From NCBI GenBank assembly GCA_003223555.1, contig QHVM01000001.1, positions 1 through 32,446 of the forward strand: a stretch of DNA of 32,446 nucleotides, read 5' to 3'. Position numbers and translations under genes: made by a program. The notes under the pieces were generated by a model. The model did not search any database, was not told where the DNA came from, and saw only the letters and a program-made list of their open reading frames with translations. Source of the stretch: Acidobacteriota bacterium. GTDB lineage: Bacteria > Acidobacteriota > Vicinamibacteria > Fen-336. This document shows positions 24,596 through 30,491 of this stretch, in pieces. Position 1 is the first letter of the stretch. Every line of letters begins with the position of its first letter.

Positions 24596-25680
24596 AGAAG
24601 CGGAACCGGGTCGCGGTGGCCCTCGCCTTGGCGGCGACCGTGGGCGCCTGCCACAAGGCGGCCGACGAGCAGACCGAGACGTCCGCCGCGGTCCCGGTGG
24701 AGGTGGCCGAGGCCCACATCGACACGGTCCGGGCCGTGGTCGCGACCACGGGAATCGCCGACCCCGCGCCAGGCGCGGACTGGACGATCATCGCGCCCCA
24801 GCCGGCCCGGGTGGCGGTGATCACCAAGGCGGAAGGCGACCGGGTGCGCAAGGGCGAGTTGCTCGTCCGCTTCGACGCCCCGCCCCTGCGCGCCGACGTG
24901 GCCACGCGCACCGGCGAGCTGGCCGCCGCCCGCGCCCGGCTGGACAACGCGCGCAAGAACGAGACCCGCCTGGCCGGCCTGCTCGAGCGCGGCATCGCCG
25001 CCCGCAAGGAAGTGGAGGACGCCCAGAAGGAGCTGCGGGAGGCGGAAGCGGCGGTGCGCCAGTCGAGCGGCACCCAGGCCGCGGCGTCGGACCTGGCCGC
25101 CCGGGCCACCGTCTACGCCCAGTTCAGCGGGATCGTCGCCCACCGGGCCCACAACCCCGGCGACCTCGTGGACGCGACGGCCAGCGACGCCGTGCTGCGG
25201 GTCGTCGATCCGTCGCGCATGCAGGTCACCGCCTCGGTGCCGGTGGGCGAACTGGTCCGGATCAAGGTCGGCCAGCCGGCCAAGGTCTTCGTGCCCGGCG
25301 CGGATCCCGATGCGTCGGAGCCGGCCCGCGTCATGAGCCGCCCGGCGGCGGTCGACGTCGCCACCGGCACCGCGGTCGTGCGCCTGTCCCTCGGGTCCGG
25401 CGCTCATCTGACCGCCGGCACGCCGGTCCAGGTGCAGATCCAGACCGAGGAGCACAAGGACGTGGTGGTCGTCCCGTCGGCCGCGATCGTGCGCGACGAG
25501 GACAAGACGTTCGTCTACGTCGTGGACGGGGCCCAGAAGGCCCATCGCAAGCCCGTCGTCGTGGGCATCATCGCCGGAGAGGACGCCGAGGTCCGCTCCG
25601 GAGTCGTCGCCTCGGAGAAGGTGGTCGTGAAGGGCCAGGAGGAGCTTCCGGATGGCGCCACCGTGACCGTGCAGAAATGA
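24592..25680 (+). CDS. RND efflux periplasmic adaptor lipoprotein
   Basis: Starting at the GTG within the overlap with the channel gene, the product has 362 residues. A lipoprotein signal ends TVGAC (Cys20). Lipoyl halves (VAVITKAEGDRVRKGELLVRF and TVYAQFSGIVAHRAHNPGDLV) flank a helical hairpin (about 105-165), followed by beta-barrel and membrane-proximal domains (VVVVPSAAIV to VVVKGQEELPDG). It should bridge the TolC-like channel and the RND pump. The His-rich metal-binding N-terminus of some CusB/CzcB proteins is not obvious. The stop overlaps the pump start (ATGA). Confidence 0.93.
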   Translation: MKKRNRVAVALALAATVGACHKAADEQTETSAAVPVEVAEAHIDTVRAVVATTGIADPAPGADWTIIAPQPARVAVITKAEGDRVRKGELLVRFDAPPLRADVATRTGELAAARARLDNARKNETRLAGLLERGIAARKEVEDAQKELREAEAAVRQSSGTQAAASDLAARATVYAQFSGIVAHRAHNPGDLVDATASDAVLRVVDPSRMQVTASVPVGELVRIKVGQPAKVFVPGADPDASEPARVMSRPAAVDVATGTAVVRLSLGSGAHLTAGTPVQVQIQTEEHKDVVVVPSAAIVRDEDKTFVYVVDGAQKAHRKPVVVGIIAGEDAEVRSGVVASEKVVVKGQEELPDGATVTVQK

Positions 25681-28600
25681 ACCTGGCGCGCGTCTCCGAG
25701 CATCACGGGCGGGCGGTGCTGCTGCTGACCGGGCTGCTGGCCGGGGCGGGGGCGCTGGCCGTCTTCTCGCTGCCGGGCGACATCTATCCCCCGCTGAAGT
25801 TCCCGCGCGTCGTCGTCATCGCCCACGTGGGCACGGTCCCGGCGCGCTCGATGATGCTGACCGTGACCCGGCCGATCGAGCAGGCGATCATGGAAGTGCC
25901 GGGAATCCGGCGCGTCCGCTCCAAGACGTTCCGCGGCTCGACGGAGATCTCGGCCCAGTTCGACACGAACACCGACATCGTGCTCGCCCTCCAGCAGGTC
26001 CAGAACCGGGTGGCCGAGCTGCGGACCGATCTGCCCGCCGAGTCGGAGCTGACGGTGGAGCGGCTCACCACCTCCACCTTCCCCATCCTCAGCTACAACC
26101 TTACCGGCGGGCTGCCCGAGGCCGACCTGCGCGACTACGCCTTCTACGTGATGCGCCCCGAGCTGGCCCGGATCCCGGGCGTGGGCCGGGTGGAGGTGAT
26201 GGCCAGCGACACGCGGGAGATGGAGGTGGTGGTCGACCCCGCCAAGCTGCTGCCCGCCGGCCTCACCGCCGCGGACGTGGCCGACGCGCTGAAGGCGGCG
26301 AACACGCTCACGCCCGTGGCCCGCTACCCTTCGCGTGGCGTGCAGTACCTCGTCCTCGCCTCCGGGCTGTGGCAGAACGCCGCGGACATCGCCAAGGCCC
26401 CGATCGTGGTCAAGAAGGGGGCCGCGCTGCGGGTGTCCGACGTGGCGGACGTCTTCCCGGGCGCTCCCGACCGGGTCACCCTCGTCACCGGCAACGGCCA
26501 ACCGGCGGCGCTCGTCAACGTCTCCCAGCAGATCGGCGGCAACATCCTCGACGTGCGGACGGGAGTGGAGGCGCGGCTGAAGGAGCTGGCCCGGACGCTC
26601 CCCGCCGGCCTGCACATCTCGAAGGTTTACGACCTGGCCGGCTTCGTCTCCGACGCCATGGGCAGCGTGCGCGACGCCATCGTCATCGGGGGCCTGCTGG
26701 CAGTGGCCGTGCTTTTCGTCTTCCTGCGCGACTGGCGGGTGACCCTGGTGGCGTCGGTGACGCTCCCTCTCACCGTCATCTCGACGTTCCTGTTCATGAA
26801 GCTCTTCGGCGAGACGATCAACCTGATGTCGATGGGCGGCCTGGCGGTGGCCATCGGCCTCGTCATCGACGACGCGGTGGTGGTCGTCGAGAACATCCAC
26901 CGCCACCGCGCGCGCGGAGAAGGCCCGGAAGCCGTCGACAAGGCGGTGGCCGAGCTGGTCGCGCCGGTGGTCGGCTCGACCCTGACCACGGTCGTCGTCT
27001 TCGCCCCCCTCGGCCTGCTGTCGGGTGTGGTCGGCCAGTTCTTCCGCGCCCTGTCGATCACGCTCTCGGTCTCCGTCATCGTCTCGCTCTTCCTGGCCCT
27101 CACCCTTATTCCGCTGCTCGCCCAGTGGAGCCGGCCCGAGAAGGGGCACGAAGGCCAGGGACGCGCGATGGAAGAGCGCTACGGGCACGCCCTCGAGCGG
27201 GCCATGGGCCATCCGCGCCTGCTCGGCCTGGGGGTGCTGGGGCTGATCCTGGCCGCGGTCGTCCTCTACCGCTTCACCCCCACCGGCTTCCTGCCCAAGA
27301 TGGACGAGGGCGGCTTCGTGATCGACTACCTGACGCCGGCCGGCACCGCGATCCAGGAGACCGATCGGCAGATCCGCAAGGTGGAGAAGCTGGTGGCGGA
27401 TACGCCGGAGGTGGCCTCGTTCTCCCGGCGCACCGGATCCGAGCTGGGCCTCTTCGCCACCGAGCCCAACAAGGGCGACCTGCTGGTCCGGCTCAAGCCG
27501 CGCGGCCAGCGCCACCGTTCGGCGGAGGCGGTGATCGAGGACCTGCGGCCCAAGATCCATGACGCGGTGCCGTCGATGGACGTGGAGTTCGTCCAGCTCC
27601 TGCAGGACATGATCGGCGACCTCGAGGGCAACCCCACCCCGATCGAGGTCAAGATCTTCGGCGACGACCCCCAGCGCCTGGAAGACCTGGCCGAGGAGGT
27701 CCAGCCCAAGGTCGAGGAGATCAAGGGCATCGTCGACGTGGTCGGCGTCGAGAAGGGCAACCCCGAGGTCACGTGGGAGATCGATCCCGCCGCCGCCGGA
27801 CGGCTGGGCCTGACGACCGCCCAGGTCTCCGACCAGCTGGCGGCGGCGTGGCTGGGAGAGGTCCCGACCCAGCTCCGCCTGTTCGATCGCACGATCCCGG
27901 TACGCGTGCGCTACCCCGACGCGGTGCGGTTCAATCCCGTGCGCCTGGCCCAGATGCCGATCCGCGGGGCGGAGGGCAAGATGGCGCCCCTGACCGCCCT
28001 CGCCCACTCGGTCCCCGCTCCCGCGCAGGGCATCCTCTGGCGGGAGAACATGCGGCAGATGTCCCTCATCACAGGCCGGCTCGAGAACAAGGACCTGGGG
28101 ACCGGCGTGAAGGAGGTGAGGGACAAGCTCTCGACCATCAAGCTGCCGGTGGGCTACAGCTTCGAGGTGGGCGGCCAGTACCAGTCGCAGCAGGAGGCCT
28201 TCCGCCAGCTCCTCACCGTCCTCGCCATCGCCGCCTCGCTGGTGCTCGTGATCCTGGTGGTGGAGTTCCGCTCCTTCACTCCCGCCCTGCTGATCCTCGC
28301 TGCCGCCCCGCTCTCTTTCGGCGGCGCCCTCCTGATGCTCCTCCTGACCCGGACCGAGCTGAACGTGTCGTCCGCCATGGGATTCATCCTGCTCATCGGG
28401 CTGGTGGTGAAGAACGGGATCGTGATGATCGACTACGCGCACCACCTCCACGCCGGCGGCAAGCCGTTCCGGGAGGCGGTGGCGGAGGCGGCCCGGATCC
28501 GCCTGCGGCCGATCCTGATGACGACCCTGTGCACGCTGTTCGGCCTGCTGCCGCTGGCCCTCGGCCTCGGTGCGGGGGCCGAGCTGCAGAAGCCGTTGGC

Positions 28601-28712
28601 TCTCGTCGTCATCGGAGGGCTCAGCCTGTCGACGCTGGTGACCCTGCTCGCGGTGCCGACTTTCTACGTCGCGGCGCGGTCGCGGAGGGAGGACACGGCG
28701 GCGCCACGCTGA
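25677..28712 (+). CDS. RND efflux pump permease (intact)
   Basis: This full-length inner-membrane RND transporter has 1011 residues, the proton-driven pump of the tripartite system with the two genes upstream. TM1 is at about 12-32, two large periplasmic porter/docking loops are present, and the TM4 motif VAIGLVIDDAVVVVENIHRH carries the paired Asp residues of the proton relay. The TM11-12 region reads GLVVKNGIVMIDYAHHL. IDDAVVVVENI favours the HAE type over the heavy-metal CzcA type, although the channel gene looks CzcC-like, so the substrate is open. It shares ATGA with the adaptor gene. It served as internal reference for the damaged pump at 1-2200. Confidence 0.95.
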   Translation: MNLARVSEHHGRAVLLLTGLLAGAGALAVFSLPGDIYPPLKFPRVVVIAHVGTVPARSMMLTVTRPIEQAIMEVPGIRRVRSKTFRGSTEISAQFDTNTDIVLALQQVQNRVAELRTDLPAESELTVERLTTSTFPILSYNLTGGLPEADLRDYAFYVMRPELARIPGVGRVEVMASDTREMEVVVDPAKLLPAGLTAADVADALKAANTLTPVARYPSRGVQYLVLASGLWQNAADIAKAPIVVKKGAALRVSDVADVFPGAPDRVTLVTGNGQPAALVNVSQQIGGNILDVRTGVEARLKELARTLPAGLHISKVYDLAGFVSDAMGSVRDAIVIGGLLAVAVLFVFLRDWRVTLVASVTLPLTVISTFLFMKLFGETINLMSMGGLAVAIGLVIDDAVVVVENIHRHRARGEGPEAVDKAVAELVAPVVGSTLTTVVVFAPLGLLSGVVGQFFRALSITLSVSVIVSLFLALTLIPLLAQWSRPEKGHEGQGRAMEERYGHALERAMGHPRLLGLGVLGLILAAVVLYRFTPTGFLPKMDEGGFVIDYLTPAGTAIQETDRQIRKVEKLVADTPEVASFSRRTGSELGLFATEPNKGDLLVRLKPRGQRHRSAEAVIEDLRPKIHDAVPSMDVEFVQLLQDMIGDLEGNPTPIEVKIFGDDPQRLEDLAEEVQPKVEEIKGIVDVVGVEKGNPEVTWEIDPAAAGRLGLTTAQVSDQLAAAWLGEVPTQLRLFDRTIPVRVRYPDAVRFNPVRLAQMPIRGAEGKMAPLTALAHSVPAPAQGILWRENMRQMSLITGRLENKDLGTGVKEVRDKLSTIKLPVGYSFEVGGQYQSQQEAFRQLLTVLAIAASLVLVILVVEFRSFTPALLILAAAPLSFGGALLMLLLTRTELNVSSAMGFILLIGLVVKNGIVMIDYAHHLHAGGKPFREAVAEAARIRLRPILMTTLCTLFGLLPLALGLGAGAELQKPLALVVIGGLSLSTLVTLLAVPTFYVAARSRREDTAAPR

Positions 28713-28728: not shown

Positions 28729-29775
28729 ATGCGCGATCGAAGCCCGAAGGCAGGTCTCCTCGCGTTGGTGCTGGCAGCGGCCTCATCGGCCTGCCTGCTG
28801 AAGCCCAACGTCGGGCCCGCCGGCCCCCCCGGGCCGCTCGGCGCGGTGACCGAAGCGGAGCGCCTCACCTACATCCGGCAGGCGCAGGTCTGGCACCGCA
28901 CCGACGTCGCCTCCATGGACCTCTTCCGCGGCCCGCAGGGTCCGAAGAGCTTCACCCCCTTCCAGACGATCACCTGCGACTACGTCGAGCGGCCGCGGCG
29001 CGGCACCACGCCGAAGTTCGCGTGCGCGCTGGCTCCCGACGACGTGGTGAAGGTCAAGTACGGAAGCGCCGAGGGCAAGGTCTACACGGAAGCGGTGGCC
29101 ACGCGACTGTTCTGGGCGCTCGGCTTCGGAGCCAACGGGGAATATCGGGTCAAGGTGCAGTGCCGCAATTGTCCGGCGGATCCCTGGAACGCGACCCAGC
29201 CTCGACTGCCGCTCGCCACCTTCGAGCCCGCCGTGGTCGAGCGCGAGCTTCCGGGCGAGGAGATCGCCCACAAGCCCGACGAGGGCTGGAGGTTCAAGGA
29301 GCTGGACCTCGTAGACGAGTCCCGGGGGGGAGCGCCGGCCGCCCAGCGCGACGCGCTGCGGCTGCTGGCCGCGTTCGTGCAGCATAGCGACAACAGCCCG
29401 AACAACCAGCGGCTTCTCTGCCGGCCCGAGGGAGTTCAAAAGGATGCGAGCGGGCGCACGACCTGCACGGCGTCCCTCATGTACATCGAGGACCTGGGCA
29501 GCACGTTCGGCCGGGGCAACTTCTGGCACCAGACGACCACCGCCCGGGGGAATTACCGGGAGTGGTCGCGAGTGCCGGTGTGGGAGGACGGCGCCGGTTG
29601 CCGCGCGCGCCTCAAGCCGGGCATGAGGGAACCGACCCTCAAGGATCCCGTCGTGAGCGAGGCGGGCCGCCGATCCCTGGCCGACCTGCCCGGGCAGCTC
29701 AGCGACGCCCAGATCCGGGACATGTTCGCCGCGGGCACGATCGACCAGCCAGGCTGGCCTTCCCCCCGGCACTAG
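28729..29775 (+). CDS. Lipoprotein with kinase-like catalytic motifs, unknown family
   Basis: Starting at ATG 28729 (AGAGGA 3 nt upstream; GTG 28717 is an alternative), the product has 348 residues. A lipobox (SSAC, Cys22) and a Gly-Pro stretch precede the domain. I do not recognise a named family, but the order of motifs resembles a protein-kinase-like fold: DDVVKVKYG (Lys108/110, strand 3), KVYTEAVATRLFWALGFG (Glu121, helix C), FVQHSDNSPNNQRL (His219-x-Asp221-x4-Asn226, catalytic loop), and MYIEDLGSTFG (Asp255, DFG-like). Cysteine pairs (CRNC at 145-148; 231 and 246) suggest disulfides outside the cytoplasm. It begins 16 nt after the RND pump gene and probably belongs to that operon. Kinase activity is inferred. 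Confidence 0.75.
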   Translation: MRDRSPKAGLLALVLAAASSACLLKPNVGPAGPPGPLGAVTEAERLTYIRQAQVWHRTDVASMDLFRGPQGPKSFTPFQTITCDYVERPRRGTTPKFACALAPDDVVKVKYGSAEGKVYTEAVATRLFWALGFGANGEYRVKVQCRNCPADPWNATQPRLPLATFEPAVVERELPGEEIAHKPDEGWRFKELDLVDESRGGAPAAQRDALRLLAAFVQHSDNSPNNQRLLCRPEGVQKDASGRTTCTASLMYIEDLGSTFGRGNFWHQTTTARGNYREWSRVPVWEDGAGCRARLKPGMREPTLKDPVVSEAGRRSLADLPGQLSDAQIRDMFAAGTIDQPGWPSPRH

Positions 29776-29877
29776 GGTCGACGCGACGAGGTCGTGAACC
29801 ACCACTGCCCGTCCTGAGCCGCACGTCGAGGCGCGTCGCCAGCGCGTGGCAATGGCTGGACGTCGCCACGGGTATCG

Positions 29878-29968: not shown

Positions 29969-30418
29969 TCACTTCGCCGCGGCGAGCCTCGCTTCGGCCT
30001 GCTTCCGGACGCGGGCCTGGATGTTCTCGAACATGTCACGCCCCGCCGGGCACTTCAGGGCGGCCCACTCGGCGTTGCGGAAGCCGAAGGGCCCCACCTC
30101 GCGCCGGTAGGCCTCGAGGTACGGAAGGACCTTGGCGAAGAGGAAGAAGCCCTCGCCGTTGCTCTCCAGGAAGTACTCGGGGTTCACGACGCCGTGCTTG
30201 ACCATCCCGTACGCCATCTCCCAGTAGCTGGCGACCTGGCGGAAGGGGCGATTCAGGTGGTGGTCGCGCTTGGTCACGGCGAGGAGATCGTCGAAGCTGC
30301 GCGGCCAGAACTGGGCGTTGATGACGTCGCGCGACTCGCGCATGACCGTCTCCCGCCGCAGCTCGTAGAGCCGGAGGACGATCTCCGCGTCGTGGTAGTC
30401 GGGATGATCCTTGGTCAT
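29969..30418 (-). CDS. Conserved hypothetical cytosolic protein (DUF4760-like)
   Basis: The product has 149 residues from ATG 30418 (AGGA about 7 nt upstream); the longer frame to 30457 lacks a ribosome site. There is no signal or membrane segment. The sequence is helical with aromatic-rich motifs: DHPDYHDAEIVLRLYELRRE, VINAQFWPRSFDDLLAV, FRQVASYWEMAYGMVKHG and FFLFAKVLPYLEAYRREVG. It resembles uncharacterised bacterial proteins of the DUF4760 kind as I recall them, but this is not secure. It has its own divergent upstream region shared with the Ser/Thr kinase gene. No function is proposed. Confidence 0.75.
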   Translation of the reverse strand: MTKDHPDYHDAEIVLRLYELRRETVMRESRDVINAQFWPRSFDDLLAVTKRDHHLNRPFRQVASYWEMAYGMVKHGVVNPEYFLESNGEGFFLFAKVLPYLEAYRREVGPFGFRNAEWAALKCPAGRDMFENIQARVRKQAEARLAAAK

Positions 30419-30491
30419 GGCGAGTCCTAGGGTAGCCAGGAGGCGGAGCGGTTTCAAGGTCTCCCGCGGGAGGCGGAGGAATTCGGTCGGC

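Follow-up and report, generated by a model that had tools for sequence, protein, structure and literature searches.

A family of kinase-like proteins from Acidobacteriota, represented in the window (the whole stretch of 32,446 nucleotides that was analysed) by a 348-residue product, is likely to consist of exported phosphotransferases with a kinase-like fold of the HipA/CtkA type, working together with phosphatase partners that would reverse or process the phosphate mark; on the same reading, the gene in the window is probably a decaying side copy. Little is known of bacterial kinases that act beyond the cytoplasm, or of the donor from which they take their phosphate. The phylum Acidobacteriota has few studied signalling systems. 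With its near-invariant active site, its export signals and its recurrent exported phosphatase, the family provides a concrete test system for extracytoplasmic phosphorylation.

The open reading frame from which the 348-residue product was originally predicted is borne out by translation and by homologues (Table 1). An outer-membrane efflux protein, HlyD and an RND transporter are encoded ahead of it, and its ATG is located 16 bases past the RND stop codon on the same strand, which makes co-transcription with the RND gene plausible. The original prediction attached the protein to this efflux operon, and a component or regulator of the neighbouring RND system would fit such an arrangement. However, an adjacent RND gene was found in none of 33 related loci, the same-genus sister locus L025 included, and the nearest one seen is a single gene about 6 kb away in L038. 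Lack of conserved adjacency speaks against an accessory role in RND efflux. We have therefore dropped the functional link, and a part for the protein in the pump or its regulation is extremely improbable. On its other side the kinase-like gene is convergent with a gene for a DUF4760 protein (PF15956, 70.7 bits; 29969-30457, minus strand). Further along is a Ser/Thr protein kinase gene (PF00069; 30523-32067, plus strand). L032 has a 71% identical relative of it some 4.7 kb away from its own kinase-like gene, and the two loci may therefore have part of their neighbourhood in common.

Table 1. Features of the kinase-like gene and its upstream neighbour (positions in the window; residue counts refer to the aligned family members).
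Feature	Position	Strand	Basis
RND transporter gene, upstream	25677-28712	+	PF00873; adjacency not kept elsewhere, context only
CDS of the kinase-like protein, 348 aa; ATG at 28729, stop TAG (29773-29775) included	28729-29775	+	ORF call, translation, homologues
Signal-peptide-like N-terminus, residues 1-22, ending at Cys22 (non-canonical lipobox ASSA-C)	28729-28794	+	Sequence and family comparison
Lys110, beta-strand lysine of the kinase-like core	29056-29058	+	Lys in 94/96, Arg in 2
Position 117, Lys in the window protein	29077-29079	+	Glu in 94/96
Glu121, probable helix-C glutamate	29089-29091	+	Glu in 92/96
Asp221, probable catalytic base	29389-29391	+	Asp in 95/96
Position 223, Ser in the window protein	29395-29397	+	Lys in 83/96
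Asn226, probable metal ligand	29404-29406	+	Asn or Gln in 96/96
Asp255 of the DLG motif	29491-29493	+	Asp in 96/96
In-frame TAG, then remnant of the family's C-terminal end, GRRDEVVNHHCPS*	29773-29817	+	Profile match reads through the TAG

The motifs proposed originally are all present in the window protein: V-K-V-K at 107-110, E121, H-x-D-x4-N at 219-226 and D-L-G at 255-257. Their conservation was counted in an alignment of 96 family members and ranked over 348 positions. D255 ranks 2nd, D221 4th, K110 5th, E121 9th and N226 22nd. Five random positions would all fall within the top 22 with a p of about 6e-7, so the motif pattern is beyond chance. G257 is invariant as well. Both the helix-C glutamate and the D-L-G motif thus stand as predicted, and the two aspartates whose loss from homologues would have spoken against a kinase-like core are kept almost without exception. 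The proposal was too wide at two points. Lys110 is near-invariant, but Lys108, named along with it, is variable (rank 148 of 348). In H-x-D-x4-N the aspartate and the Asn or Gln at 226 (Gln in 22 of the 96) are general, but the histidine is not, position 219 being H in 37 of the 43 members of one clade and N in 46 of the 53 members of the other. Note that both members with K110R belong to the four that lack E121, as would be expected if K110 and E121 form an ion pair. Strand lysine, helix-C glutamate, presumed catalytic aspartate and the presumed metal-binding Asn and Asp are thus conserved in the order that is the hallmark of the PKL fold.

AlphaFold2, run with the family alignment, predicts a two-lobed kinase-like fold with its structural elements in kinase order, confidently both for the window protein (pLDDT 86.6, pTM 0.85) and for L032, a complete relative (pLDDT 91.3, pTM 0.88). 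A Foldseek search of the PDB put the HipA-type kinase CtkA at the top for both models (E 1.8e-4 for the window protein, 1.1e-5 for L032), with HipA, PI4KII and CotH ranking behind. TM-scores to solved kinases, CtkA among them, are modest (0.36-0.53), so the relation to CtkA is distant. When the family was compared by HHalign with HipA proteins from related genomes, 120 columns were aligned with a score of 35.0, at a probability of only 21%; the controls reached at most 19.9 in 60 block-shuffled alignments and 16.1 with a reversed alignment, and a narrower family alignment (A2) scored just 22.3 against HipA. In this register Lys110, Glu121 and D221-x4-N226 fall on their HipA equivalents. HHalign comparison of the family with CotH gave no similarity, and a PF00454 search in the phylum gave marginal matches only. 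Judging from the models, a kinase-like fold is very likely for the family. Neither of the two results named in the original prediction as counting against it was obtained.

The expectation that the protein fits no known kinase family held against every named family searched. The window protein has no match in Pfam, NCBIfam, PHROGs or the PDB sequences, and neither this protein nor 33 members have a Pfam match to HipA_C (PF07804), CotH (PF08757), Fam20C or PF00454. Among the PDB sequences, the CtkA chains match neither the window protein nor the family profile. A literature search, with subscription papers and preprints outside its coverage, found no publication on the family. It is therefore undescribed in the libraries and literature searched: a new family with a known fold in an unusual setting, and an unnamed branch added to the kinase-like superfamily.

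All 96 aligned members come from Acidobacteriota as far as searched. Scanning species genomes with the alignment as query gave loci from Acidobacteria/Acidobacteriota groups plus one titled Cyanobacteria; a scan of genome contigs with the single sequence gave nothing, while the alignment query did give matches. In 60 related genomes, the single sequence finds a match in 12 and the profile in 24; across the phylum, the profile matches 51 of the 297 genomes sampled. Contigs C79 (55% identity) and C134 (44%) of the window's genome carry other copies. In the C134 copy (L089) the N-terminal part has no family match and the same-genus copy L091 is complete; a frameshift or an assembly error is a possible cause. 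A weak, longer relative is found on contig C100 of this genome, where the C-terminal half of a 692-residue ORF (L090:4402-6477, plus strand), itself having no Pfam match, is a weak match to the family. Frames of 550-900 residues of this kind are present in other genomes. Neither the window protein in phages nor the distant member L056 in plasmids gave a match, so a mobile origin is without support.

Export, as proposed, agrees with the family at large: 92 of the 96 members have a signal-like N-terminus. The N-terminus of the window protein is of this kind, but its lipobox is non-canonical, and a lipobox-like motif occurs in about 25 of the 92, so the predicted lipoprotein status is uncertain. 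Cysteines divide the family into two clades, one of which has them and the other mostly not. Invariant in the cysteine clade are Cys at 83, 99, 145, 148, 231, 246 and 291 and a C-terminal Cys; the window protein has seven of these eight because its C-terminus is cut. The cysteines behind the probable disulfides of the original prediction accordingly mark one clade and are lacking in the other. The signal-like N-termini and the cysteines together fit an extracytoplasmic site.

The cut end, overlooked in the original prediction, is peculiar to the window copy. In the same frame past the TAG, the remnant given in Table 1 matches the end of the family, and the conserved C-terminal helix is short of about 14 codons as compared to L025. 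By this TAG and deletion the protein has lost the C-terminal helix and the terminal Cys, as the sole case among 46 cysteine-bearing members. It also has the changes E117K and K223S. The tree pairs it with L025 at a support of 100/99, and the C79 copy and L032 adjoin this pair; L025 has K110R, E117K and E121A and a long branch, and the other copies in the genome of the window keep the motif. The window and L025 copies appear to evolve under relaxed constraint, and the window gene is probably a side copy behind the RND operon that is losing function. It is on balance probable that this copy is a pseudokinase or decaying paralogue with the same fold, non-catalytic and with a binding role or none. 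The dead pseudokinase that the original prediction left as an alternative is thus plausible for this gene, but not for the family. The retention of K110, E121, D221, N226 and D255, the 348 open codons and the confident AF2 model argue the other way, and since the genome comprises 151 contigs, mis-assembly might account for the TAG and the deletion. Catalysis by the window copy is doubtful. Decay of this copy can be compatible with our explanation for the family.

The family has recurrent gene partners. An exported Metallophos protein recurs near the relatives, often directly downstream and convergent. Within 2 kb of the kinase-like gene, a metallophosphoesterase is encoded at 28 of 91 loci, a PLD-like protein at 20 and a DUF4956-like membrane protein at 13. 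At least one of these partner kinds lies within 2 kb at 45 of the 91 loci, at least two at 14, and none at 46. The density of partners near the gene, as compared to further away at the same loci, is about 25-fold higher for metallophosphoesterases, about 34-fold for PLD-like and about 7-fold for DUF4956-like proteins, values that are inflated because the profiles used to find the partners started from genes of these same loci (12, 5 and 2, respectively). Among 60 genomes, a close relative of the phosphoesterase is present in 14 of the 16 with a kinase-like gene (E ≤1e-20) and in 3 of the 44 without (phosphoesterase E ≤1e-60; both thresholds set after inspection; Fisher p 4e-9, kinship ignored). 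Such a phosphoesterase lies 740 bases downstream of the C79 copy. In a single ORF at L030:7797-10022 (plus strand) the kinase-like domain is followed by a fused C-terminal PAP2 domain (PF01569, 70.8 bits), and in G001, of the same genus, as well as on C134 of the window's genome, a PAP2 gene overlaps the kinase-like one. The copy in the window is without a phosphatase partner. A search of the genome of the window did not find the PLD-like partner, which has no signal peptide, and the full module is for this reason not claimed there. The recurrent phosphatase neighbours hint that a system for phosphorylation may operate beyond the cell membrane.

Several single loci add to this picture of the surroundings. 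A complete polyphosphate kinase (Ppk1) gene (L055:5546-7816, plus strand) is located directly upstream of a distant family member. An 821-residue ORF (L119:2230-4692, plus strand) has a kinase-like domain and a C-terminal part that matches Omp85 (PF01103, E 8e-7). In three related genomes (G011:C84, G013:C21 and G020:C45) a true CotH gene and a metallophosphoesterase match are no more than about 350 bases apart, a parallel to the kinase-like/phosphatase pair.

If the family is enzymatic, the nucleotide would be held by Lys110 and Glu121, with Asp221 as the catalytic base and Asn/Gln226 and Asp255 as ligands of Mg or Mn. Phosphorylation of the target, which may be a protein or an envelope lipid or glycan, would take place at the cell surface or within the periplasm. 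A phosphatase encoded alongside, either the exported metallophosphoesterase or the PAP2 enzyme, would reverse or process the phosphate mark. The DUF4956-like membrane protein and the PLD-like protein also belong to the set in many genomes. Catalysis in the family seems fairly likely. Against this explanation as a whole stand the modest TM-scores (0.36-0.53), the HHalign probability of 21%, the partnerless loci (46 of 91) and the scarcity of ATP outside the cytoplasm. As ATP is not expected outside the cytoplasm, the whole family might instead be non-enzymatic, the kinase fold being reused as an exported nucleotide- or ligand-binding protein; Gln at position 226 in 22 of 96 members and an HRD-type residue pair at 219 that is not strictly kept point the same way. 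In typical pseudokinases, however, the aspartates are not kept as Asp221 (95 of 96) and Asp255 (96 of 96) are here, and the phosphatase partners recur. We regard a non-enzymatic family as rather unlikely.

Assuming that phosphotransfer does take place, the partners and the fold suggest different targets. The nearest folds, CtkA and HipA, favour a protein, whereas the PAP2 and PLD-like partners favour lipids or glycans. In the latter case PAP2, PLD-like protein and phosphoesterase would act in the same lipid-phosphate pathway, consistent with the PAP2 fusion in L030, the overlapping PAP2 genes, the PLD-like neighbours and the presence of PI4KII among the fold matches. But the top fold match CtkA, as well as HipA, acts on proteins (PMC9758233), and metallophosphoesterases have many substrates. 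A lipid or glycan target is a possibility of less than even weight. A bolder form of the phosphotransferase explanation is a cross-envelope phosphate module in Acidobacteriota, where the PLD-like and DUF4956-like proteins would make or export the donor, the exported HipA/CtkA-type kinase would transfer the phosphate to envelope targets, and the exported metallophosphoesterase or PAP2 would remove it. This is speculative and, as a whole, quite unlikely. If this is true, it would explain how a kinase can work where ATP is scarce, and the module would parallel the CotH/polyphosphate-polymerase/DUF4956 sets of Gram-positives.

Among known systems, CtkA, the HipA-type Ser/Thr kinase of Helicobacter pylori (PDB 3akk, 3akl), is the most similar by fold (Foldseek probability 1.00 with both models), and it is likewise a single kinase-like domain of about 300 residues. 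The similarity is structural only, with about 10% identity and the modest TM-scores given above. CtkA acts through a type IV secretion system (PMC5536186), whereas members of the present family carry signal peptides and have phosphatase genes as neighbours, with paired cysteines in one of the clades. For HipA (PF07804) the profile comparison, in which Lys, helix-C Glu and D-x4-N coincide, suggests a possible relationship, and HipA structures are among the fold matches. It differs in that the family has no HipA_C match and HipA's D-x-H-x2-N is without the family's D-x-K; HipA is also cytoplasmic and paired with HipB, whereas the family is exported and its neighbours, as far as scanned with Pfam, include no HipB. 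PI4KII and PI3/PI4 kinases appear among the fold matches (4hne, 5i0n, 9hhm), but the family has no PF00454 match. FAM20C and its relatives are alike by analogy only, as disulfide-bearing kinase-like enzymes outside the cytosol (PMC7948968); there is no Fam20C Pfam match, and FAM20C is absent among the 50 fold matches listed. Membership in CotH (PF08757) is rejected since there is no PF08757 match and the profile comparison was negative, and the genome of the window has a separate true CotH (L152). CotH nevertheless has a kinase-like fold and a weak fold match to the family (5jda/5jd9), and the acidobacterial CotH examples seen have exported-type N-termini. In Gram-positives CotH clusters with polyphosphate polymerase and DUF4956 (PMC7112168), a gene set parallel to that of the family described here.
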